Positions 26,497-46,779 of a DNA stretch of 47,161 bases are shown here, in pieces (the stretch's first letter is position 1; each line of letters opens with the position of its first letter). Under the pieces are notes generated by a model. The model saw only the letters and a list, made by a program, of their open reading frames with translations. It did no database searches and was not told where the DNA came from. Origin of the DNA: a virus. The position numbers were made by a program, and so were the translations under genes. The stretch is taken from the IMG/VR virus record IMGVR_UViG_3300025128_000076, positions 1 through 47,161 of that record, one strand, 5' to 3'.

Positions 26497-29400
26497 TCAA
26501 TAAGTACGGAGGGTAGCAGAGTCGTTAGTAAGTTCCAACTTACCTTCTTCTACTGGAATAGTAATGTGCTTAACAGGCTTTTCGTCTTGCGTTCCCGGCT
26601 CTATAGAAGAGTCTTCTCCGGGGCGTTTTTTGTTATCATAGTCAGGCATTGTCTTAGAATCGTGTAGGTTAGTCGGGCCAGTAGGCGACTCTATAGGAGT
26701 AGCATAATCTATACCTAGTCCCATAGTACCTGTACTAGACTGACCAACAGAGCCTACTCCACTTTTCATCATTCTTTCTAACAGTAAAAGACCCTTGACC
26801 AATACTTTACCTTTGTCTTCCTCTTTCCACCAATCAGTATCTTTGACTTTCTTAGGTTTAATGAAAGGCTTAGTAGGACCGGGTTCATAACTGTCATCAT
26901 GAACTTCTTCCTTTTCTGTAATTTCAAGACCAGCCTTTAGCATTGTACCTGCTACTGGCCCCCAGTAAGGTCTCTGTGTTTCAGACAAACGTATGAGATA
27001 CGAGTTATTAGCCAATGGACTATGTAATGACCAATTACCACCGGACTCTGTCGCTTTGTAAACCACATCACCTTGTGGCATGACTATACGAATTCCAGAA
27101 GGTACGCTTGTAACTTCGCATAGCCACTGTTTAATTTCAGATTTAGCAAGTAGGCCCAGTGTCTCTTGACTAACTAGTCCTTCACTTTCTGCCTCTCCTT
27201 GTATTTCAGAGCCTGTAACTGTATACAACTTGTGCCCTTCGCTAAATTCAGACTCACCTACGTTATCGACGTTTACCTTAACATGGTCACCTTCGTTGAA
27301 TTTCTCTTTACTATCGAAAACTGCACCTACATCCATGTAGGTTTCCTTATTGAGTTCTACAGCCCTATCACCTAGACTTTCATCTTGTGTAATTGGACCT
27401 GTACCTAAGCGGTAAGTGTAAGGACCGCTTCCTCTTCTTTCCAATACAATCAAAACTACATCCTTGCCTTCTGACAATAGAACCCACTTTGGTTGACGAA
27501 GTTCACCTACCATGTAGGTAGACTTAGCATCTCTGAGTAATAACCTATCATTATCTTTCTTCAAATCTTCCACAGTAGACTCTAGTCCACCATCATCGGT
27601 TAACCTAGTATCACTAGCACTAGGTATGTGTATGTTCTCTACTCCTTCCATACCGCCTCTTAATATTTTGATACGGGCATCGAGTAAAGTATCGTGTACT
27701 TCTTTGCCATCAAACTTGATAACGTCAAATACATAGTAGCCTTCTTCAGTTTTAATGACATCAACATGATAATCGTCATCAGCAACTTTCTTAAAATTCT
27801 CTTTGTCTTCATCTGATAACTTAAAGGAAGGAGAGGTAACCTTGTCGTCTTCTTTAACTACAAAGCCCCTTTCACCTTCAGGCATAACTGAAACTATCCA
27901 GTCTCCTGTAAATCCACGCAGATGCTCTAAGTCCTCAAGTTTGAATATACGGTGCATAGGCTGAAGTAAAGGTATGTCTTTACCCAAATCCTTCCTAATG
28001 ATATCAGGATTAGTTAAGTCGGCAAGTCCTATTTTAGATTTCAAAGCCGAAGTCCCATCGACATTATGCAAGTAAACCCTTCCTCTTTCACTTGGCTGAA
28101 ACTGAGGAGGCTGCCTTCCTATTGCACTTAATGCACTGATTGCATTCGGGTTACCTACTAAGTGATTTAGATGAGGAAACGCTTCTCTTATACTCCTACT
28201 CAAAGGCCTAACTATATTACTAGGAATTCCTTCAGCAACAGGTGAGTATTCGACTTCATGTGTATCGGGATTTATGTGCCAATCAAAGGTAGGATGCATA
28301 TGTCTTCTCAAACCATCATCGTGATGCTGGTCTCCCATTTCAAAATTATATCCTGCAGAATTATAGTAAGAGCCGACACTATCCGTATGAGGACCATATG
28401 CGTCTATGTTAACGTCACCCATACCAAACTGTTGTCCCATAATAGATTCCAAATCCTTAGGTTCAACTGTAGGGTCACTTATCAAAATACTGTTTAAGTC
28501 TTGGAGAGCACGGAATCTTCTTGCTGTATTTTGAGCAGTACTACCTTGCTTTTTACCAGCAGTAGTAGGGTCAGTTGATAATTTACTACTAGGGTCAGGA
28601 TTATGGGCAATGTGGTAATCAAGTCCTAACTCTGACTTTTTCTCCTCCGTGCCAGTCTTAACAGTCCTTGCCTTACCTTCTCTTGAAGAAAGGTCTCTCC
28701 TAACTCTATTAATTGTATTAACAGTCCCTTTATTCTTATTGTAAGTCTTCTTGTCATGTATGCGGTTTACCATGTCCGATAAGCCTGAGCCCAAATCTCC
28801 ATAATGGTTGGTAGAAGAAAGCATTTGTTCAACTGTCATAACAGGGAAGCGAAGTGAAGTATCACCTGTATCTGCAATCCTACTATGTAACTTTTCTAAT
28901 AAAGAATCAACTGTAGCCCTATTTCGCTCATCGTTATAATCAAGGTTTAGCATTTCAGCAACTTCTTCTCCGGTACTACCTGCCCCAACTGTGTTCTCAC
29001 TATTATGCACACTTTGCTTTACTGCAGGTGCTTGTCCTACATCACCTCCTTGTTGGTGATAACCTGTACTTCTAGTCTGTAAACCGTGCATTTCATGAGG
29101 GGCTTGTTGAAGGTACGTGTTGCCTAATCGGAAAAGTTGTCTGATATTAGCGTCTAATGTCTCAACGGGCAAATGCTCTCCGAACAAATTATTCCATAAT
29201 TCAGGGTCACTTGCTTGTAGCCGTTGACTAAGCATACCAGTCATCTTAGCGATAGCACTTTCATCAGCGTTTATCTTTTCTAACTCAGCCGGACCATGAG
29301 TTCTCATAGCAGTCCCACCTATTTCAGCACCTATGCCTTCAGGAGGTTCAGCATTCAATTCGTCAAATTCATCTTCCAATTCGTTTAACTGATGCATAAG

Positions 29401-31860
29401 GTGCTCTTTGTGCTTTTCCGTAAGTCCTCCTTCACCTAGTTTATCTTCAATGTTCCTCATTCTTTCAAATAAGCGATTCATCTCATCTTGCTTTTCAGCA
29501 ACTTCTCTTTCTTCTGGCGGAGTACCTGTCACTTTACCCATACCTATTTCTCTTTCACGAGTTAAAGCGTCGATAGCCTGAGTAGTTGGTTGGGTTGCTC
29601 CCTGTCTACCCAGTTCCAATATACCATTATCATTAGTAAAAGGAGCACCATTCTTATGCCTCATTGTTCCTACTCTATGCCATAAATGAGCAAGTCTTCT
29701 TTTAGAGCGTTCATTATTAAGTGCACCTTCTTGTGTCCCTAAGAATGGATTAAATCCTGCCATAGCGCCGCTAAACTTACCACTGAGTTTATCCTTTATT
29801 CCTTGCCAACCGGGTTTACCGTAATTAACATGCAATTCCTTAGCATGTATATTATCGGACTTGGCATTTAAACTACCATGATGCCTCATCCAATTTCTAC
29901 GCCTAGTACCTAGTTTAGAAGTAAACCATTTATTTTCTGGATTATGAATAGACTGGCTGTCATCGGCTATACCTCCACTTACTTTGTACTTCTTTCCACC
30001 TTCGTCTGCTTCAGTAATTTCTGCTTCAGGACTACCCCAAGGCCCCATTGCACCTAGCATACCGCTGTGTAATTTTTCACCCGTTGAATCTTTGTAATGC
30101 CTTATACCAATAGTATTAGTTAGTTCATTTTTATCAAATAGTAAACTACGCATAGCCCTCTGAGGACTCATAGTTTGCTGTTGACTTTCTGGCAAGTCTT
30201 CTTTTTCTTTATCAGCGAAGAACTGTCCATAACCATATTCGTCAACCTTTTCCTGCTCTTCGCCGATTCCAATACTACCTTCGGGTGACATTTTATCAGC
30301 ACCATACAAAGGAGTCATGGCGTGTAATAAGTTCTTGAGTTCATTAGGTAATTTACCGAAGCCCCCTCCTAAAAAGGGCTTATTCCAATGAGAAGCAAGT
30401 GTAGTGTTTTCGCCTCCAGTAATGTCTTCGGGATAATGATTGGGGTCGACATGGTGACCATAATGCCACATTCCGAAATTTTCTCCCATTACACCATAAT
30501 CATCACTAGTATTAGCATCACTAAGGTGTTGAAAGACATTATCTACATCAACTTGGCTAAATGGACTATCAGACTTTTTCCAATCTTCATAGTCAGGATG
30601 CTCTCCGTCACTATACAGTTCTCCTGTAGAAGGATTTACGTTAAGTAACCTAAGTAATTCTGCTCTCCTTAATCCTCCTTTCTTATGAGCGCCTTTAGAA
30701 CCAAACTGTAAATTTCCATCTCCATCAATGTAAACCTTGTCACTACTAATGCCGACCCCTTGTCTATCAGCGTGCCACTGAACAGCCTTTGAAAGTGCAT
30801 CTCCTCCTAATGATAACAAAGCATCACGATTTAATTCAGGCCTTATCTTAGGCTTACCGATTGGTTGAGGTATAAATTCTACTGGTTGTCCGGGACTCAT
30901 AGGGTCTCTAGTCCAATGGTCAGCCATACCAGTAAATCTTTGCTGAAAGTTTCTAACTAACCTACCTACATCAGTATGATTATCAGCACCTATAGACCTA
31001 CGGTCTCTGTCATTTGTTCCCCATTGTGACATGTGTCTGTAAACTTCATCTCTTTGCTTAGGAGACTTCCATTCTAATCCGAATAGATAATCGAATAAAC
31101 CTAAACGATGTGGAATACCATTTTCATCAGTTGTATCTGACATCCAGCGTTCTTTGGCTTCACCCATGTGCATTTTTCTTAACTCATGCTCTGCTTCCAA
31201 ATCACTAAATCCTTGTTCTTTCAAAGCAAGTTCTTCGTTAACCTTGTCTTTCTTCCAATCACCGAAGTGCGTTTCATATTCGTCATGGTTACTGTATTTC
31301 AAATCTCCATAATGATGGTGACCGAATAAAAATGAATAATTTTCATCAGAAGAATATTCTCCTTCAATGTCCTTTTCTTTCTCTGCATCGACATAACTTA
31401 CAGAATCTGCCCCTGCTTGGGACGGTAAGTAAAAGTTAGCAACAGAATTTACCTTACCACTAAATCCTTGTGTATCTACTCGATACAAAGGATTGAATCT
31501 ATAATCGAATGGATTATGGTTTTGGTATTGGTCACCAACTTCTCCTTGTGTTAATTCAGGGATGTAGCCTGCTATACTCTGTCCCGGCTGAACTCCTAAA
31601 ACACGATTACTGTCAATCGAGTTTTCATAAACTTCTTGACCAGAATAACCTAGACCTGAGTCTTCTTCAGCCTTAATGACCGAATGGAACATTTTAATCA
31701 AAGCATTATCGTCATCAGACAAAATATAACCTTGTCTTTTGGCACTAACCGTAGATAAGAAAAAATCAGCACCTGCGTCAGCCTTGCCGATACTATCTCC
31801 GAGCGAATGTAAAAAAGTACTCCTGTTCCTATCAAGGATGTCAAGATGGCCTTCTCGCAT
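26497..31860 (-). CDS. 1787-residue head-module protein with degenerate DNA-ligase-like domain
   Basis: Lies between small head proteins and the prohead protease, where minor head or ejection proteins are usual. ATG 31860 has GGGTGATTT upstream. Residues 1-1280 are hydrophilic, His/Gly/Asn-rich, with a helical stretch around 780-850, and match nothing I know. Residues about 1295-1560 follow the order of an ATP-dependent DNA ligase: LQPMHRIFKLEDLEHL entry, MPEGER (1326-1331) where KxDGxR should be, FDVIKFDGKEVHDTLLDARIK (motif III region), RLLLRDAKSTYMVGE (motif IV region), KWVLL (motif V), VVLIVLERRGSG, then an OB-fold-like VGAVFDS...EGDHVKV. The catalytic lysine is Met and motif V lysines are absent, so ligation or adenylation activity is unlikely. 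A structural or DNA-binding role is inferred. Confidence 0.75.
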   Translation of the reverse strand: MREGHLDILDRNRSTFLHSLGDSIGKADAGADFFLSTVSAKRQGYILSDDDNALIKMFHSVIKAEEDSGLGYSGQEVYENSIDSNRVLGVQPGQSIAGYIPELTQGEVGDQYQNHNPFDYRFNPLYRVDTQGFSGKVNSVANFYLPSQAGADSVSYVDAEKEKDIEGEYSSDENYSFLFGHHHYGDLKYSNHDEYETHFGDWKKDKVNEELALKEQGFSDLEAEHELRKMHMGEAKERWMSDTTDENGIPHRLGLFDYLFGLEWKSPKQRDEVYRHMSQWGTNDRDRRSIGADNHTDVGRLVRNFQQRFTGMADHWTRDPMSPGQPVEFIPQPIGKPKIRPELNRDALLSLGGDALSKAVQWHADRQGVGISSDKVYIDGDGNLQFGSKGAHKKGGLRRAELLRLLNVNPSTGELYSDGEHPDYEDWKKSDSPFSQVDVDNVFQHLSDANTSDDYGVMGENFGMWHYGHHVDPNHYPEDITGGENTTLASHWNKPFLGGGFGKLPNELKNLLHAMTPLYGADKMSPEGSIGIGEEQEKVDEYGYGQFFADKEKEDLPESQQQTMSPQRAMRSLLFDKNELTNTIGIRHYKDSTGEKLHSGMLGAMGPWGSPEAEITEADEGGKKYKVSGGIADDSQSIHNPENKWFTSKLGTRRRNWMRHHGSLNAKSDNIHAKELHVNYGKPGWQGIKDKLSGKFSGAMAGFNPFLGTQEGALNNERSKRRLAHLWHRVGTMRHKNGAPFTNDNGILELGRQGATQPTTQAIDALTREREIGMGKVTGTPPEEREVAEKQDEMNRLFERMRNIEDKLGEGGLTEKHKEHLMHQLNELEDEFDELNAEPPEGIGAEIGGTAMRTHGPAELEKINADESAIAKMTGMLSQRLQASDPELWNNLFGEHLPVETLDANIRQLFRLGNTYLQQAPHEMHGLQTRSTGYHQQGGDVGQAPAVKQSVHNSENTVGAGSTGEEVAEMLNLDYNDERNRATVDSLLEKLHSRIADTGDTSLRFPVMTVEQMLSSTNHYGDLGSGLSDMVNRIHDKKTYNKNKGTVNTINRVRRDLSSREGKARTVKTGTEEKKSELGLDYHIAHNPDPSSKLSTDPTTAGKKQGSTAQNTARRFRALQDLNSILISDPTVEPKDLESIMGQQFGMGDVNIDAYGPHTDSVGSYYNSAGYNFEMGDQHHDDGLRRHMHPTFDWHINPDTHEVEYSPVAEGIPSNIVRPLSRSIREAFPHLNHLVGNPNAISALSAIGRQPPQFQPSERGRVYLHNVDGTSALKSKIGLADLTNPDIIRKDLGKDIPLLQPMHRIFKLEDLEHLRGFTGDWIVSVMPEGERGFVVKEDDKVTSPSFKLSDEDKENFKKVADDDYHVDVIKTEEGYYVFDVIKFDGKEVHDTLLDARIKILRGGMEGVENIHIPSASDTRLTDDGGLESTVEDLKKDNDRLLLRDAKSTYMVGELRQPKWVLLSEGKDVVLIVLERRGSGPYTYRLGTGPITQDESLGDRAVELNKETYMDVGAVFDSKEKFNEGDHVKVNVDNVGESEFSEGHKLYTVTGSEIQGEAESEGLVSQETLGLLAKSEIKQWLCEVTSVPSGIRIVMPQGDVVYKATESGGNWSLHSPLANNSYLIRLSETQRPYWGPVAGTMLKAGLEITEKEEVHDDSYEPGPTKPFIKPKKVKDTDWWKEEDKGKVLVKGLLLLERMMKSGVGSVGQSSTGTMGLGIDYATPIESPTGPTNLHDSKTMPDYDNKKRPGEDSSIEPGTQDEKPVKHITIPVEEGKLELTNDSATLRTY

Positions 31861-34872: not shown

Positions 34873-36180
34873 CTATACCTCAGGTGCCCAACTCATTACT
34901 GTATCTCGGTCTACTCCCCACTCTTTAAGTGATTCCTCACCTTTTTGAGTACCTTCACGATTTGAAAATTGAACAAATCTCTTTATTTCATCCTTGCGTA
35001 TAGGGTCTGCTTCCATAAGATAAGCCGATACAGCCTTGGCTTGTCTATCTTTCATACGAAGATGGGGAGTGATGCCTGCTAATAATTTAGTCAAGTCATC
35101 TTTTGAATAAAAACTAACACGGTGTTGACTTCTTTGTCCGTCTTTGTACACCTTTTGGTCTAATTGTAATTTACCAGCACCTATATTTTTGTACAATTCT
35201 TCACAATGAGTGCGTCCTCGGTCACCTGTAGCAATGAATCCTGCACGAGGCTCGCCTCTTTCAGTGATAGTAATATAACCATCTGCATCAAGGAAGCCCG
35301 CTGCATAAGCCCAAGGGTCTTTGATAATCAGTCCCTCTTTACCTATGCACATATACTCACCCTTTCTATGGGCTTTGATGATATTAATTTCTTCACCGTA
35401 TAATTTCAATAAACTAGACAGCCTATTTGAATTAATTCTAGTAACGCCCTTTTCGATAAGATTACCAGTGATGGTCCTAGCATTCATAGAGCCATGCTTT
35501 TCAATTTCCGCTTTGGCTAAGTTTAGCCACTTTTGCTGTTCTTTATTTAGATTATCAAACTGATGTAAAGCAGTCTTCCACATCTTACGAGCATCTTTCT
35601 TAAGTTGCATAGCATTAACCCAACTTAACCTTTCTTCTTCCCCCCATACGTCTTGGAATTCATCAAGTTGCTTTAGTGTAGATTCTGCATTATCCCAAGC
35701 ATTACATGCTCTCATCAAACTACTTTCTCTACTATTACCAAAAAGGCGCAAGGACTTGAGTGACTTATCACTTAACCCCAATTGACGCATAGTGTCGTGA
35801 TGAGAAACTGCCCAGTCTATTTTACTAAGAGTAGCGTCTACTTCCATACTCTTTAGTTTAATGACGTTAGAAATAATACCATCTATTTCTTCTTTAAATT
35901 CCTTGTGTACTCTTCTGGCCTTTCTCAATTCTTTAACTAATTCAGTAGCACTCTTACCAACTTTGTCTTCAAACCAACCCTCTCCAGTTATAGGGAATGG
36001 TACATAATCAGGACTAGGTAGTTCTTCTTCTTTCAAGATTATAGTTTCGGAAGCGATTGATTTAGCAATCGTCTCATTTACCAACGGGTGAGTGACTAAA
36101 GTAGATGCTATAAGAGAATGAATAGGGCTATCCATATCTAAATTATGACTAGACTGACCAACCGATAATGAACCCCACAT
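34873..36180 (-). CDS. Single-motif LAGLIDADG protein with long helical N-terminus
   Basis: 435 residues between large terminase and portal; ATG has GGGGAGAAGTAT upstream. Residues 293-301 read AAGFLDADG followed by YITITERG, a classic LAGLIDADG helix and first strand. RVSFYSKDDLTKLLAGITPHL and KDRQAKAVSAYL complete one domain, so it would act as a dimer. The first 280 residues are mostly charged helix (VKELRKARRVHKEFKEEIDGI and others) with a possible winged-helix near 225-260. Neighbouring terminase and portal are intact, so it is freestanding and not an intein. The large helical domain suggests either a specialised homing endonuclease or a domesticated packaging cofactor. Confidence 0.8.
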   Translation of the reverse strand: MWGSLSVGQSSHNLDMDSPIHSLIASTLVTHPLVNETIAKSIASETIILKEEELPSPDYVPFPITGEGWFEDKVGKSATELVKELRKARRVHKEFKEEIDGIISNVIKLKSMEVDATLSKIDWAVSHHDTMRQLGLSDKSLKSLRLFGNSRESSLMRACNAWDNAESTLKQLDEFQDVWGEEERLSWVNAMQLKKDARKMWKTALHQFDNLNKEQQKWLNLAKAEIEKHGSMNARTITGNLIEKGVTRINSNRLSSLLKLYGEEINIIKAHRKGEYMCIGKEGLIIKDPWAYAAGFLDADGYITITERGEPRAGFIATGDRGRTHCEELYKNIGAGKLQLDQKVYKDGQRSQHRVSFYSKDDLTKLLAGITPHLRMKDRQAKAVSAYLMEADPIRKDEIKRFVQFSNREGTQKGEESLKEWGVDRDTVMSWAPEV

Positions 36181-36218: not shown

Positions 36219-37697
36219 TCAAGCGACGAACCAAGCCCCCGCTATGCTACTTTGCCCAGAGTCTCCGAATATACTGTCAAAGCCGGGCATATAGTCATCC
36301 AGTGATACAATCGAGCCTCTGAATTCTTTCGTAGCCCAATTAGACAATGCCAAACTCATGGCCAAGTCGTCGTGAGAGCCAACAGATTCAAGTCTTCCGT
36401 TTTTCTGCATTCCAAATCGACTTAACTGGGTCTCTAACTCACGAGTAAATTCTTTACTCTTTTCATTGCCCCAAGGAGTCTTAATTTTACCCTGCTCAAA
36501 TGCCATAAGTAATGACATAAACATGCTTTCTTTGCGCTGCTTGGTTGTCATAAATGTCTTGATTGGAATGTCATCCCTCATTTCTTGTAACTCTGCTGCA
36601 AACATTCGTTGAAAATTGTTACCTTCAAGTTCAATTAAATCAGGTTGGAATCTATTATTGAGTAAAATTATCTGACGTTTCTGTGCAGCACCACCAAGTC
36701 CCTTTTCATTCAATACATATACCAATTGCTTTTCTTCAGTGTCAGGAAGTACCCTAAGTACACTCATTGCAGTATAGTCTGCGTTGGAATCAGAAGCAAT
36801 TGCTGGGTCCCAGCCAATGAAATGTTGTCCGAATACACCTGCAACCTCGCCTTCTTCATCAAATTCTTGTTCCGCTCTATCAAGTAATATCAATTCTTTA
36901 TCCCTTGCTTTTTCTAACAAGGACATAGGGAACATACTAGATAAGTCGTGAATAGGTTCGCAGAGATATTCACGGGCGAATCTAATCGCAGGCATAGATT
37001 CTTCACGAACCTTTAGCGCATCTAACGGCCATCGATTTGGCCAAAGCGGTTCGCCATTAGGTAAGATAGCCGGATAAGTTTCGACTTGGAATGCATCTTT
37101 GTCTTCCAATTCTGCGTACAGGTCATTGTATGAAAAAGGTGTACCGACCATCATGAGGCGACCCGTGTGGTGCAAAACCGGAAGTAAAACAGTATAGAAC
37201 CAATCGGCTGCTCTTTGTAATTCAGAAGCAGTGGTTCCCCAAAGAATATCGTCGCATACTACTACATCGGGGTGGAAACCACGAGTAGCACCACCAACCG
37301 ACTTAGCCATAATACGACTACCATTAGTGAATTCAAAATAAGATTTAGCCCAAGGCTTACCAGTTGGCTTGAGATGACTTAGAATCTCATTACTTTCTAT
37401 ATTATTGCGGATGAAACGCATATGTTCCAAGGTCTGCTCTAGGCTGTGACTGAATACCATGACGTGAGTCTTAGGATTAAATGCTGCAATCCAAAGAGCA
37501 TAACTCATGAAGAATACAGATTTACCGTGGTCACGAGACGCCTTAACACAATAGTAGCGATTTTCATTCAGTCCTTTTTGCCACTTTTTGTGGTGGTCTG
37601 AGAAGTCGAATCCCAAGATATCTGTGAAGAAATACTTGAATGACTTAGAGCACATCTGTAAATCAATGTCCCTGACGAGTTCATCCACCCCTGCCAC
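36219..37697 (-). CDS. terL: Terminase large subunit (ATPase-nuclease)
   Basis: 492 residues. ATPase: Walker A-like ASRDHGKS (53-60), Walker B VVVCDD (145-150), and coupling motif MVGTP (183-187) before FSYNDLY. Nuclease: FIGWDPAIASD (D297), LIELEGN (E356/E358) and SHDDLAMSLALS (D443/D444), the usual RNase-H-like acidic set. All expected motifs are present, so it is probably active. It translocates DNA into the prohead through the portal and cuts the concatemer. A putative small terminase lies four genes upstream in the same operon and the portal lies two genes downstream. Confidence 0.93.
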   Translation of the reverse strand: MAGVDELVRDIDLQMCSKSFKYFFTDILGFDFSDHHKKWQKGLNENRYYCVKASRDHGKSVFFMSYALWIAAFNPKTHVMVFSHSLEQTLEHMRFIRNNIESNEILSHLKPTGKPWAKSYFEFTNGSRIMAKSVGGATRGFHPDVVVCDDILWGTTASELQRAADWFYTVLLPVLHHTGRLMMVGTPFSYNDLYAELEDKDAFQVETYPAILPNGEPLWPNRWPLDALKVREESMPAIRFAREYLCEPIHDLSSMFPMSLLEKARDKELILLDRAEQEFDEEGEVAGVFGQHFIGWDPAIASDSNADYTAMSVLRVLPDTEEKQLVYVLNEKGLGGAAQKRQIILLNNRFQPDLIELEGNNFQRMFAAELQEMRDDIPIKTFMTTKQRKESMFMSLLMAFEQGKIKTPWGNEKSKEFTRELETQLSRFGMQKNGRLESVGSHDDLAMSLALSNWATKEFRGSIVSLDDYMPGFDSIFGDSGQSSIAGAWFVA

Positions 37698-42238: not shown

Positions 42239-42940
42239 TCACAAAATATCAAGAATCTCTTCATCTAATTGACCATCAGCAGTCGAAAGGAGTTTTGCCT
42301 TGAGTCTTTTCCAAGTCTCTGGACTTTCCTTACCAAGTTCCACTTTAAGCACATTGATAGTATTATTGGCGACATTGGCCGTTGGCTCTGCCCATTTCTC
42401 TTGATACTGTGACAAGTCCTTGAGAGTTTCACGTACTTCTTTGTGTAACTTTACCATATCAGTAATCACACCATCATCATGTATGCTAGTTTCTGTCATA
42501 AACTGAGCAAGTTTTCCATTAAGGCCTTCTACATTGTTACGCAGTATATCTATTTCGTGTCCTACTTTAACTGATACAATTGCTGTAGCACTCCGCTTAA
42601 CAAGTGGTTGGAAATGGTGCTTCATATGACGGAAAACTAATTGCTCTCCGCAATCAAGTTCGGCAGCAATATCTTCGGTAGTCCTATCTCCTTCAAAATA
42701 AGCCACTTCCAAAGCCCTTCTGTCGTCACTAGTACAAACTACACAGGAATGATTAGCATCTTTATGATAATCTCCTGCATGGTTATTCATATGACGCTCT
42801 GCAGTATTCGCTCTCCAGCCCATATCTTTGTCTAAAGTTTTGACATCTGCAATGCCATCAATTATGTTTTGCTCTAGGTCGTCACGGTCTTCGTGCTGGC
42901 AAAAAGGGCAAGAACGCTTACTCTGACGCTCACCGCTCAT
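42239..42940 (-). CDS. Putative terminase small subunit with two zinc-finger/HTH repeats
   Basis: 233 residues. The first 110 contain two copies of one unit 55 residues apart: C11/C14...H50/H54 and C66/C69...H105/H109. Each has a helix-turn-helix-like core (NIIDGIADVKTLDKDMG; AYFEGDRTTEDIAAELDCG) before an RHM..H ending. Such CxxC-HTH-HxxxH DNA-binding units occur in phage small terminase-like proteins. The C-terminal half is helical (MVKLHKEVRETLKDLSQYQEKW) and ends acidic, fitting oligomerisation. It is the first gene of the long minus-strand block and lacks a Shine-Dalgarno, so it may be leaderless. A transcription factor is the alternative. Confidence 0.65.
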   Translation of the reverse strand: MSGERQSKRSCPFCQHEDRDDLEQNIIDGIADVKTLDKDMGWRANTAERHMNNHAGDYHKDANHSCVVCTSDDRRALEVAYFEGDRTTEDIAAELDCGEQLVFRHMKHHFQPLVKRSATAIVSVKVGHEIDILRNNVEGLNGKLAQFMTETSIHDDGVITDMVKLHKEVRETLKDLSQYQEKWAEPTANVANNTINVLKVELGKESPETWKRLKAKLLSTADGQLDEEILDIL

Positions 42941-43000: not shown

Positions 43001-43312
43001 ATGAAACTACCCCGTGCTCAGACCAAAATACTAGGGGTTCCCGTGTCTATAGAGACTGCCAAAAGCCTTGGTAGGGCAAGTCGAGACATATTCATGAGAA
43101 GATTTGTACCTGAAGACGTAAAGGAAATTAGAATGGACATCTGTAAGACCTGCCCTAGTTGGGATAAACGATTCAACCGATGTACAGAATGTGGTTGTCA
43201 AATGAGAGTAAAGGTTGCACTAACGTCTAGCGAATGCCCATTAAGAAAATGGGGTAGGCACTTACCGTCAGATGCTGGAGATTCTACTGTAGATTCCGCC
43301 GAGCATGAATAA
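43001..43312 (+). CDS. Six-Cys zinc-ribbon phage protein (only plus-strand gene)
   Basis: 103 residues. Cysteines form CKTC (C48/C51), CTECGC (C61/C64/C66) and a final SECPLRKW (C79), the arrangement of a small zinc-binding protein family common in tailed phages (CxxC...CxxCGC...CPxxKW). The basic N-terminus includes SLGRASRDIFMRRF. Its real-gene status rests on this motif, since all other plus-strand frames are shadows. Its last 45 bases overlap the end of the convergent two-TM gene. Function is unknown in the family; an early or regulatory role is possible given its opposite orientation. Confidence 0.8.
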   Translation: MKLPRAQTKILGVPVSIETAKSLGRASRDIFMRRFVPEDVKEIRMDICKTCPSWDKRFNRCTECGCQMRVKVALTSSECPLRKWGRHLPSDAGDSTVDSAEHE

Positions 43313-43510
43313 TGCTCCGAATATACCTGCTACTAGGTAAGCGATAGTATCACTGGCTAAACTTTCTGAGCCAGTAATCATAATCATACCGAGTGTCACA
43401 ATAATAGAGATAAGTTGTACCATGACCATATCAACAATAAAGTTCTTCCTTGGATTAAAAATAGCCATAGTTCCGTAAGCAAGTCCTGAAAAAGGCCTAT
43501 CTCCTAACAT
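43268..43510 (-). CDS. Two-transmembrane small protein
   Basis: 80 residues with two hydrophobic segments, about 25-46 (FIVDMVMVQLISIIVTLGMIMI) and 55-75 (TIAYLVAGIFGALFMLGGIY), joined by a short polar loop (TGSESLAS). Starts three bases after the Gln/Met-rich gene stops and ends in a convergent overlap with the plus-strand zinc-ribbon gene. Last gene of the GTPase/membrane cassette. A holin-like or virion-membrane role is possible; the sequence alone does not decide. Confidence 0.7.
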   Translation of the reverse strand: MLGDRPFSGLAYGTMAIFNPRKNFIVDMVMVQLISIIVTLGMIMITGSESLASDTIAYLVAGIFGALFMLGGIYSRISSI

Positions 43511-43512
43511 AA

Positions 43513-44145
43513 TTATCGTACTCCCATCATTCTGCCCATGAAATTACCAGCAGCGCCACCTGCTTTGTTCATGAAGCCTTCATCTTGCATTGCAGCACTA
43601 AGTGCTCCGCCCATCATCGACTGCTGAGCGAAGGCTGTAATCTGTTGCTGCTGCATTTCTGCTTGCTGAATGTTCTGTTGACTTGCCATTTGTAAAGAAT
43701 TAAACTGACCGGTTACATTTTCAGCACTCATGGTCTGTAAATTCTGAGGTAAAGAAGCAACATCCATCTGCATAGTCCCTGCATCTTCATCTATAGTGAA
43801 CTTAGCGTTCTTAAGAATCTCTAATACTGAAAAACTCACAAGGTCATTGACCATCTGTACAAGTGTCATCATCTGTGCGCCCATAATAAATCTGTCAATT
43901 GGCGCAAGAGTGCGCATTAGTGCCATCTGTATCTCCATTTCAGAAGGTGGTTGCATAGGTTGACCCATCATCTGTTGGTTCATACCCATCCCTCCAGCCA
44001 TACCGCCCATGAAAGGGTTTTGGGATGTCTGTTGCATCATACCATTTTGCGTAGCGAATGGATTCTGAGACTGTTGCCCCATACCATTATTGGCTCCTAA
44101 ATTCAAAGTTCCTGTTGGTTGCTGGTTATTTCCAAATAGTCCCAT
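43513..44145 (-). CDS. Gln/Met/Gly-rich protein with NPF motifs
   Basis: 210 residues, ATG preceded by GAGAGGTGAAATATT. Residues 1-70 and 150-210 are low complexity, rich in Gln, Met, Asn and Gly, with NPF at 28-30 and 43-45. The middle (EMEIQMALMRTLAPIDRFIMGAQ, VQMVNDLVSFSVLEILKNAKF) is helical and amphipathic. It follows the Cys/His protein of the GTPase cassette, so a partner role is likely. No family is recognised. Confidence 0.65.
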   Translation of the reverse strand: MGLFGNNQQPTGTLNLGANNGMGQQSQNPFATQNGMMQQTSQNPFMGGMAGGMGMNQQMMGQPMQPPSEMEIQMALMRTLAPIDRFIMGAQMMTLVQMVNDLVSFSVLEILKNAKFTIDEDAGTMQMDVASLPQNLQTMSAENVTGQFNSLQMASQQNIQQAEMQQQQITAFAQQSMMGGALSAAMQDEGFMNKAGGAAGNFMGRMMGVR

Positions 44146-44159
44146 AATATTTCACCTCT

Positions 44160-45206
44160 CTACTGTGGTAACTCCATCTGCTCCGGTTGACCGACGAGGT
44201 TATTGTTCATAGTAGCATTGGTCAGTCCCAAATCTTGCGCAGAAGCCATTTGCTGTTGCTTCTGTGCCATTGCTACAGAGGCCTGTGTTGGACTTTGATT
44301 AATACCTATATTGGATATTGCGTCAGATATAGTAAAGTTCTGACCGGTCATTTCTTGTTGGAACAACCTTAGGTCGAATACTATCATCGTAACATCATTA
44401 ATGCCTGTTTCTGGATTCTTATAGTGCAATATACTGATACCATTCTGTACTTTAGAGTCTTTCTGTAACTCTTCAAAGAAAGGCTCGTACTTTGTTAGAT
44501 ACTTAGGTGTGTTATCCTTTTTCTTAACAATAGCAATAGGCACTGCGATAGTACTAACACCCTTCTTTACTAATTCTTTCATTCCAATTTTTGTTTTACT
44601 GTGGTCTTTATCAGCCTCTGCTTCCCATTTACAAAGTAGATGGTATAGATGGAGGTGCTCTGGACAATATGTACCTTTCATCAAGCGACCATTAGTAACT
44701 TGTTCTCTGGCGATAAATGCTTCAGGAGCCTGAGTAACTGGGTTTTTCCAATAAGTTTCCCAAAGACTCTTTCCAGTTTCTTCGTCACATATCTTGGCAT
44801 ATAGATTATCATACTTGATTAACTCTTCACAATCACAGCCGTCGATTACACATAAACTGGTCTGACGATTGTATCTGTATTTTCTGCCCCATATCCATCT
44901 AAGGGGATTAAAGAAACCACGCTTAGTCGGTGTGAGTAAGCGACGGGCTTGCTTAATGTCCTGCTTACGTGCTTTACGTGGGTCAGGGTGTCTACTAGGA
45001 TAAAAGTTCACTTTAGGAACTTCTATATTTTCTTTATGTGACATCTGTTGCATTTGCTGTTGCGCAGCCTGCATCTCTAATAACTGCGCATGACTAGTGT
45101 TACCTTGTTGCCCTAATGCCATTAAATGAGCATCGCTCATATTTGCTAAATTAGCATCTGACCTAGGTACACGTCCATAGCCTCCGAAGCCTAAATTTCC
45201 TACCAT
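44160..45206 (-). CDS. Cys/His-containing protein of the GTPase cassette
   Basis: 348 residues. Ends are Gln/Met-rich and probably disordered. A basic patch (ARKQDIKQARRLLTPTKRGFF) precedes a central domain with CVIDGCDCEEL, YCPEHLHLYHLLC and a beta-helix segment (GISILHYKNPETGINDVTMIVFDLRLF), suggesting a zinc-bound fold. The Gln/Met-rich ends resemble the following 210-residue protein, so the two may co-assemble. It lies 13 bases after the small GTPase gene and might be an effector or partner. No known family. Confidence 0.65.
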   Translation of the reverse strand: MVGNLGFGGYGRVPRSDANLANMSDAHLMALGQQGNTSHAQLLEMQAAQQQMQQMSHKENIEVPKVNFYPSRHPDPRKARKQDIKQARRLLTPTKRGFFNPLRWIWGRKYRYNRQTSLCVIDGCDCEELIKYDNLYAKICDEETGKSLWETYWKNPVTQAPEAFIAREQVTNGRLMKGTYCPEHLHLYHLLCKWEAEADKDHSKTKIGMKELVKKGVSTIAVPIAIVKKKDNTPKYLTKYEPFFEELQKDSKVQNGISILHYKNPETGINDVTMIVFDLRLFQQEMTGQNFTISDAISNIGINQSPTQASVAMAQKQQQMASAQDLGLTNATMNNNLVGQPEQMELPQ

Positions 45207-45219
45207 ATCTTATCTCTCC

Positions 45220-45942
45220 TTATATCGCTAGTATATCAATCATAGTGTTTTCTACATTCCAACCTATTTTTGTAGCCATCATTCCTCTTTTAGTAGGAAT
45301 ACCTGCCTTTTGTAAGCGAATCAAATCATCTCTAAACGGGTCAAACATCTTATGCTCACCCAACCTTTGTTGTTGCCAAAGAACATTGGCCTGCTCATCC
45401 CACCATTGGTCTGCCTTATTGGCGACCAACATAATTACCTTAGGAACATATCGCTTACCTTTGACCCAAGCCCTAAAATTACGGTAACGATATTGCCTAT
45501 GCAGCAATGCATCCACTAAATACTTGAAGCCGCCGACTGCTTGTATAGCATCGTCTCCTCCTTTAGTGGTCCTGTGGTCAAACATAAAAATAACTGCTTC
45601 AACACGGCGGTTCACCATGTCATCAATCCAAAGATTCCAAAAGCGCTCATCACCACCAATGTCCGAAGAATAAACCACTCTCTTTTCTCCTTTCCAACTC
45701 ACACGCTTGCGTGTAGGTCGAGGAAGTAAAAATCGATTCATACCGGGAATCCTAAAATGCTTAGTACGGTCATCTTCGGATATTTCTTCCATCTCACCGG
45801 GAGTAGTCATGTACCTGTCGAGAGTAGTCTTGCCACTCAAAGGAGGACCATAGATACCTACTCTTCTTGGAATAAAATAATGCCATAGTTCACGGGCGAA
45901 TACCATACCGCCTACTAGTGCAGAGCCTCCCATCATAGACAT
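45220..45942 (-). CDS. Arf/Ras-like small GTPase
   Basis: 240 residues with a full set of GTPase boxes in order: G1 GPPLSGKT (32-39), G3 SDIGGDERFWNLW (DIGG 94-97, similar to Arf-type DxGG followed by W), G4 VANKADQW (NKAD 175-178) and a G5-like ATKIGWNV (223-230). A short hydrophobic or amphipathic N-terminus (VGGMVFARELWHYFI) precedes G1, as in membrane-attached GTPases. It lies nine bases after a single-TM protein gene and before two Gln/Met-rich proteins. It should bind and hydrolyse GTP; its process in the virus is unknown, though membrane association is suggested by its neighbours. Confidence 0.82.
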   Translation of the reverse strand: MSMMGGSALVGGMVFARELWHYFIPRRVGIYGPPLSGKTTLDRYMTTPGEMEEISEDDRTKHFRIPGMNRFLLPRPTRKRVSWKGEKRVVYSSDIGGDERFWNLWIDDMVNRRVEAVIFMFDHRTTKGGDDAIQAVGGFKYLVDALLHRQYRYRNFRAWVKGKRYVPKVIMLVANKADQWWDEQANVLWQQQRLGEHKMFDPFRDDLIRLQKAGIPTKRGMMATKIGWNVENTMIDILAI

Positions 45943-45951
45943 AATATCACT

Positions 45952-46200
45952 TCAGTCAAATATAGAGTCGGACCAACTAGCCAACTTATCTTTTAACCAG
46001 TTACCAGTATTTTCCCAAAGGTTCCAGTCAGAATAATATTCTATTGCACTTATTACAAAGGCAGTCGTTATAGAAAAGAAAGCGACCTTTAACCAACCCA
46101 CTGCCCTTTCGTAAGCCACGTCTACCATGTTAGCAGTATGCATCATCCTTAGTGTTTCCTCGACGGTATCGTCGGAAGGAGTCTTAAAGATGCGACCCAA
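45952..46200 (-). CDS. Single-transmembrane small protein
   Basis: 82 residues from TTG 46200, with GAGTGAT upstream and the previous stop seven bases away. A hydrophobic stretch at about 36-56 (GWLKVAFFSITTAFVISAIEYY) is preceded by a polar N-terminus and followed by a Trp-rich amphipathic tail (NLWENTGNWLKDKLASWSDSIF). It is directly upstream of the GTPase and may anchor or present it at a membrane. No family recognised. Confidence 0.65.
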   Translation of the reverse strand: MGRIFKTPSDDTVEETLRMMHTANMVDVAYERAVGWLKVAFFSITTAFVISAIEYYSDWNLWENTGNWLKDKLASWSDSIFD

Positions 46201-46206
46201 ATGACA

Positions 46207-46779
46207 TCACTCTACCTTCTTTTGATATCGCTTATCAGGCGTACCGTCTTTTTTGAGGCGGGTAACTTCGTCGTCACCGAAACTCAAACCTAGGCTTAAA
46301 GGAGAGGCGTCTTTATGTTCGGTTTCTGGGACAAAATCATAACTACTCATAGAAGGCTCTGTCATTCTTTGTTGAATCCAAGGAGGGGTTTTACCGGGAT
46401 TTTCCTCCATCCATTTCAATTCGGCTTCAAGTTGCGCCTCTTGCATACGCATCTCCATATCTTGGCGACGACTATCAAATGTAAATTCCATAGAACGGTA
46501 GCGGTTTCTCCTCTGTCGCTCTTGTGTCGCCATTCTTGCCTTCTCATCCATTCCTTGTTGAAAGAACATCTTAAAAAAATAGTAAGCGAGTCCCTGTACA
46601 GCGAATGCTGCCATAGCATAGGTCACTCCATTGACTGTCGGGTCATCTAACTTTAACCAAAATCCTGCATCAAATACTGCCACTGCGATACCAATCGATA
46701 CTGCTTGTGTAAGTATTAATCCCATTAAGCGAATTTCCGCTTGGTCGCTTTCTCTATTAAGTTCATAATCAGGTTGCAC
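46207..46779 (-). CDS. Two-transmembrane protein with charged cytoplasmic helix
   Basis: 190 residues from GTG 46779, which has GAGAGGGG six bases upstream. Two hydrophobic segments (about 20-44, LMGLILTQAVSIGIAVAVFDAG; about 55-75, VTYAMAAFAVQGLAYYFFKMF) are followed by a long charged helix (EKARMATQERQRRNRYRSMEF, DMEMRMQEAQLEAELKWM) and a polar tail. It opens the GTPase cassette downstream of the non-coding stem-loop region. A membrane scaffold or receptor for the GTPase is an inference. Confidence 0.7.
   Translation of the reverse strand: MQPDYELNRESDQAEIRLMGLILTQAVSIGIAVAVFDAGFWLKLDDPTVNGVTYAMAAFAVQGLAYYFFKMFFQQGMDEKARMATQERQRRNRYRSMEFTFDSRRQDMEMRMQEAQLEAELKWMEENPGKTPPWIQQRMTEPSMSSYDFVPETEHKDASPLSLGLSFGDDEVTRLKKDGTPDKRYQKKVE

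Follow-up and report, generated by a model that had tools for sequence, protein, structure and literature searches.

A divergent Arf-like small GTPase predicted in a conserved membrane-gene block of magrovirus-like archaeal viruses

Introduction

Switches of the Ras superfamily are a hallmark of membrane traffic and polarity in cells. The Rup group 1 small GTPases lack the catalytic Gln, which may be supplied by a partner, and MglA is an exception in having no conserved G3 Asp (PMC4316618). The magroviruses (Magrovirales), for which the magrovirus literature gives the Poseidoniales as host, have genomes of 90-118 kb with PolB, RFC, a chaperonin, nucleases, and opposed gene clusters (PMC12999244, PMC10768690). 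The open-access accounts of archaeal tailed viruses and magroviruses consulted here mention no GTPase, and those on magroviruses gave no mechanism of lysis or egress. Likewise, our search of the open-access literature found nothing pairing a GTPase with a magrovirus, nor anything that brings together Poseidoniales, a virus, a terminase, and a GTPase; an earlier passing annotation may exist elsewhere, for example in the first magrovirus description. Here, we analyze a 47-kb virus record (the window, meaning the whole stretch of 47,161 nucleotides), in which a predicted switch of this superfamily appears as a core gene in abundant ocean archaeal viruses. The results bear on the spread of archaeal small GTPases.

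Results

Identity of the Virus

Across 99% of its length, the capsid protein of the window virus matched haloviruses of the Druskaviridae, with E-values down to 3e-53; compared with HCTV-5, the identity of the major capsid protein was 33% over 99% (E=5e-45). Its matches came from archaeal viruses and one unassigned phage, and those of the portal protein came from archaeal viruses only. The relatives are 100-118 kb long and carry PolB, RFC, and chaperonin genes. For example, a relative of 115,554 bases (G004) codes for PolB, an RFC-like AAA protein, a chaperonin, and nucleases of the PD-(D/E)XK and ERCC4 types, its genes being arranged in two opposed clusters. The capsid and portal matches and the gene content of G004 agree with what has been published on magroviruses (PMC12999244, PMC10768690), and we assign the window virus to the archaeal tailed viruses as a magrovirus-like member. 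The analysis turned up no host genome link. The terminase gene is as follows:

36219..37697 (-): terminase large subunit (TerL), phrog_38 E=9e-62, Terminase_6C

The best annotated matches of TerL were Bacteroides phage terminases, at about 28% identity, and no profile match was found between TerL and HVTV-1. The capsid and portal proteins track with the Druskaviridae but TerL does not, so the terminase may have been replaced in this lineage. In addition, a 1787-aa protein with weak similarity to ATP-dependent DNA ligase (26497-31860, -; E=0.0053) is encoded directly before the prohead protease gene, and a 435-aa protein between TerL and the portal (34873-36180, -) contains a domain at its C-terminus that resembles endonucleases (phrog_5046, E=5e-7).

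The GTPase Gene and Its G Boxes

45220..45942 (-): GTPase gene ("GTP" of the module), 240 aa, ATG start, Arf/Ras-type small GTPase by prediction

Relatives of this gene were confirmed in 145 IMG/VR stretches in one scan and in 209 by profile scan, and scans begun from distant members gave 118 and 140 stretches. The lowest identity seen between the window protein and its homologs was about 56%. The differences from close relatives were strongly biased towards the third codon position (e.g., 28/11/123), and the NG86 estimates against relatives were about 0.08-0.14 for dN and about 1.4 or saturated for dS. The third-position bias and the low dN versus dS indicate a genuine reading frame on which strong purifying selection acts. 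No homologs of the GTPase or of its neighbor p348 were found in annotated phages. In cellular records, homologs were found only on two contigs of 8 kb (L082 and L083), which belong to MAGs labelled as Maricaulis and as an Asgard archaeon. They were rejected as cellular homologs, as the same viral block is present on both contigs, which are likely viral contigs misbinned into these MAGs.

The first-pass annotation had placed G1, G3, G4, and G5 in the right order in this ORF. The order was confirmed, and with a candidate G2 all five G boxes are ordered within the 240 aa. Their conservation was scored over 96 distinct homologs:

45826..45849 (-): G1 (P-loop) GPPLSGKT, residues 32-39; GKTT invariant in the 96 homologs less one truncated sequence
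45763..45768 (-): candidate G2, Arg59-Thr60, invariant in 96/96 homologs
45649..45663 (-): G3 DIGGD, residues 94-98; D94 and G97 invariant in 96/96
45409..45420 (-): G4 NKAD, residues 175-178, in 96/96 homologs
45268..45276 (-): G5 ATK, residues 223-225; A223 and T224 in 96/96, AT in Arf style

Residues K38, T39, T40, T60, D94, G97, N175, K176, D178, A223, and T224 were invariant, one of the homologs being truncated at G1. The R59-T60 pair, absent from the earlier list of boxes, lies 22 residues past the P-loop Lys, and T60 is a candidate G2 threonine assigned by position only. G5 reads AT[RK] across the family, and G3 has both Gly (D-x-G-G) in 87/96 homologs. Residue 98 corresponds to Q61 of Ras and Q71 of Arf; at this position the homologs have Q (44), E (38), D (12), or H (2), and the window protein has D in place of the catalytic Gln after DxxG. 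This hints at slow or GAP-dependent hydrolysis.

Two other regions of the protein are distinctive, one of which is a conserved basic insertion, R.YRYR..GKKY.P, between alpha-3 and beta-5. The other is at the N-terminus:

45874..45933 (-): N-terminal hydrophobic helix, residues 4-23, directly before beta-1; possible membrane-association element

This helix is a low-confidence prediction with a modest moment, and its moderate hydrophobicity in most cases falls short of what a confident TM assignment would need. The hydrophobic stretch contains a conserved GSALVG; a conserved Gly2 is absent.

Predicted Fold and Family Assignment

An AlphaFold2 model built with 40 relatives (pLDDT 74.7, pTM 0.74) had Ras-type topology, with strands and helices in G-domain order. 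The G boxes fell in the loops where they would be expected: G1 follows beta-1, G3 lies where beta-3 ends, and G4 and G5 follow beta-5 and beta-6, respectively. The P-loop and helix 1 were poorly modelled, with pLDDT below 50 at residues 36-50. Foldseek searches against the PDB gave 864 matches at E<=0.001, the best being Rab/Rho/Ras proteins (E 2.4e-7, prob 1.00); the best 50 of the 864 were Rab, Rho, Ras, and similar proteins, and included one tubulin-cofactor complex entry. The TM-scores between the model and known GTPases were only 0.4-0.6. Among predicted viral proteins (BFVD), close fold matches were found only in giant eukaryotic viruses, the top ones being their Rab/Ras proteins.

Single-sequence searches (Pfam, PDB, PHROG) failed to recognize the GTPase, and family-level searches were needed. 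The window protein alone had no Pfam match at E<=1, nor at E<=5. Its relatives weakly matched Roc, Arf, MMR_HSR1, Rag, and Ras in Pfam, and 33 of 40 members weakly matched small_GTP (TIGR00231), to which the window protein had E=0.02, below the cut-off. In the HMM search that the first-pass annotation had proposed as a check, the weak family matches were mainly to small GTPases and no curated Pfam or NCBIfam cut-off was passed, suggesting that the GTPase represents a divergent new family.

As a cellular reference only, and not as evidence of origin, we used Asgard proteins from a profile search of 195 genomes belonging to the phylum of an Asgard MAG. The best matches were Arf-class by best Pfam domain, with E-values to about 3e-6 per genome. 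In profile-profile alignment, hhalign gave a probability of 98.4% for Arf-like proteins that have an N-terminal extension, against 95.5% for a Ras-like set and 90.9% for classical Arf-like proteins, and G1 to G4 aligned with Arf- and Ras-type GTPases in the profile comparisons. An AAA ATPase control reached 93.3%, but over just 24 columns at the P-loop, indicating that the alignment span, not the probability, discriminates. The MglA family, suggested by the P-loop wording YGPxLSGKTT, was set aside on two grounds: the G3 Asp is invariant in the viral GTPase, and L270, an Asgard P-loop protein whose G1 is similar, aligned over 15 columns only. Two Arf-class Asgard GTPases of 212-213 aa (L273 and L274) align with most of the viral GTPase length and have in common with the viral family a W..W..(M/L) stretch after G3; they are a possible cellular sister family.

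The single-sequence PDB search had only RecA P-loop similarity near the top, which would suit a P-loop ATPase or nucleotide kinase that merely resembles a GTPase. We regard this as very improbable: NKAD and the AT of G5 are invariant, G3 has the DxxG form, the fold matches small GTPases, and the profile alignments run through G4, whereas the AAA control is confined to the P-loop region. The G boxes, the small-GTPase fold predicted by AlphaFold2 and Foldseek, and the profile alignments support the earlier reading of an Arf/Ras-like small GTPase. On these sequence and model data, the gene product is a divergent, Arf-like member of the Ras superfamily of small GTPases, predicted to bind and hydrolyze GTP.

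The Conserved Gene Block

The GTPase gene lies in a block of seven genes, m190(TM)-m82(TM)-GTPase-p348-p210-m80(2TM)-TerS-like, which was complete in 126/126 distinct loci with enough flank. Besides the GTPase, the region contains:

46207..46779 (-): m190, membrane protein with a hydrophobic N-terminal part and a long charged helix, in 126/126 full blocks
45952..46200 (-): m82, small protein whose single TM-like segment is weak
44160..45206 (-): p348, conserved cytosolic protein with a Cys/His (zinc-like) core and a C-terminal alpha/beta element
43513..44145 (-): p210, Q/G/M-rich protein
43268..43510 (-): m80, two-TM protein
43001..43312 (+): zinc-finger ORF between m80 and the TerS-like gene, opposite in strand to both, DUF6171-like (E=0.0021)
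42239..42940 (-): TerS-like HTH protein, named from weak PHROG DNA-binding matches and position, last gene of the invariant block

Among the 44 TerL loci with at least 9 kb upstream, 43 hold the GTPase and the remaining one is cut inside the block. The apparent absence of the gene at seven loci was a gene-caller artefact. As the first-pass annotation had suggested checking, the gene is at the same locus with the same neighbors in every related viral contig that is long enough. A search by way of the capsid protein led to 13 contigs with the GTPase, and the other marine contigs that it found stop before the expected position of the gene. The capsid relatives without the block are HVTV-1, other halovirus/Druskaviridae records, and one peat-type virus whose TerL is divergent; on the late strand of HVTV-1 only two ORFs lie between the RadA-like gene and TerL, leaving no room for it. 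Within the sampled magrovirus-like lineage, to which the claim is limited and which may or may not include magrovirus groups B-E and X, the GTPase is a core gene.

The first-pass annotation correctly described how tightly the gene is linked with membrane proteins, upstream of the packaging genes. Its wording "just upstream" holds with the qualification that in the window the zinc-finger ORF (43001-43312, +) parts the module from the terminase genes. The small Cys-rich ORF was present in 104/146 loci and missing as a group from some clades. The assignment to a "structural block" needs revision, since the virion genes proper start after the module and the GTPase belongs to a distinct membrane/GTPase block beside them. 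At the other end, the site before m190 holds a small zinc-ribbon ORF in the window clade, and in one clade (L372:2-9106) a 2000-3000-aa protein with many Cys motifs is encoded directly before m190.

Discussion

The role in virion or host-membrane processes that the first-pass annotation suggested is an inference, and the genome position of the block fits release, assembly, ejection, or host manipulation alike. As a whole explanation we lean slightly towards a membrane-associated GTP switch that runs a virus-encoded membrane complex late in infection. From family knowledge and the conserved boxes, the GTPase would bind GTP/GDP and act as a switch, and its N-terminal helix and three membrane-protein neighbors would place it at the host cell membrane. 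The GTP-bound form may recruit or assemble a complex of m190, m82, m80, p348, and p210 late in infection, and hydrolysis, slow or partner-aided in members without the catalytic Gln, may reset or time this complex. The most likely output would be either virion release, by membrane remodelling or lysis, or head building and packaging at the membrane, neither of which is favored.

The conservation data bear on a narrower possibility, namely that the module serves only as a platform on which the portal/prohead or the packaging site is built on the host membrane. Proheads of T4 start at the membrane. The block always abuts the TerS-like gene, with TerL a few genes on, and the GTPase is almost as conserved as TerL, its identity to the window protein being second only to that of TerL in nearly all compared relatives. 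However, haloviruses with homologous capsid and portal proteins manage without the block, and an opposite-strand gene divides it from the packaging genes in about 70% of loci. We regard a platform function alone as less likely than the late membrane switch.

The partner proteins point in several directions. The m190 tail (46207-46260, -) is basic, reading KKDGTPDKRY in the window and RGADGKFKKK in relatives, and possibly binds nucleic acid. No match to m190 was found in annotated phages, and one homolog of 38 weakly matched the T7 internal virion protein gp14 (E=0.0075). Together with the place of the module among the late genes and the Q/G-rich, probably disordered tails of p348 and p210, the gp14 match would be consistent with a virion component or ejection apparatus, in which packaged module proteins form a membrane channel at entry. 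This is unlikely, as the match is weak and isolated and a GTPase switch would be unusual in an ejection protein. In addition, m190 weakly matched SLATT_4 (E=0.006) and a PADLOC 2TM effector model (E=0.018). Ras-type switches often act in membrane traffic or polarity, and the GTPase might instead mimic or divert a host small GTPase or block a host membrane defense, with m190 resembling a 2TM SLATT effector. A host-directed effector is quite unlikely: universal presence at one locus beside packaging genes is unlike variable anti-defense genes, and the m190 matches probably arise from generic 2TM/coiled-coil composition. The SLATT/defense reading of m190 was rejected, since these weak matches were present in few members.

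A role of p348 as a roadblock/longin-type GAP was considered and rejected, as its fold search gave nothing significant and no known fold. No GAP, GEF, or effector fold was recognized in p348, which leaves a switch circuit unsupported. A bolder version, in which archaeal tailed viruses run their own Arf-type G-protein membrane machine, a GTPase switch with dedicated membrane partners that builds an assembly or release site, is speculative and less likely than not. If true, it would parallel, in viruses of prokaryotes, the Arf/SR-beta membrane systems of eukaryotes, and such switches might have moved along this route between archaea and their viruses. The seven-gene block with its fixed membrane partners is a defined target for studies of archaeal-virus assembly or exit.

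Comparison with Known Systems

Among the Asgard reference proteins, the viral GTPase is closest to Arf-class GTPases; G1-G4 align with the Arf type, and the D-x-G-G form of G3 and the A-T of G5 are in its style. In Arf and SR-beta, a hydrophobic N-terminal helix stands ahead of the G domain, as is predicted with low confidence for the viral protein. The viral protein differs from the Arf type in falling below Pfam cut-offs, in having the catalytic Gln in less than half of its members, in its length of 240 aa with a longer switch I region and the basic alpha-3/beta-5 insertion, and in being virus-encoded. Rab/Ras/Rho proteins (PF00071) gave the best Foldseek matches and have the same overall topology; however, sequence similarity to them is weaker than to the best Arf-like set, the viral G5 is AT[RK] rather than SAK, and a C-terminal prenylation motif is absent. 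The MglA family is similar as a small G domain in prokaryotic systems, whereas the viral G3 Asp is invariant and no MglB/roadblock gene was recognized nearby. The Ras/Rab-like GTPases of giant eukaryotic viruses are also virus-encoded and gave the best BFVD matches, but the resemblance is one of fold alone, at 10-17% identity, and the eukaryotic viruses that encode them are unrelated. Among viruses, the window lineage shares with magroviruses and Druskaviridae homologous capsid and portal proteins, PolB, an RFC-like AAA protein, a PD-(D/E)XK nuclease, genomes of about 100-118 kb, and two opposed gene clusters. Unlike the Druskaviridae records, the window lineage carries the GTPase block.
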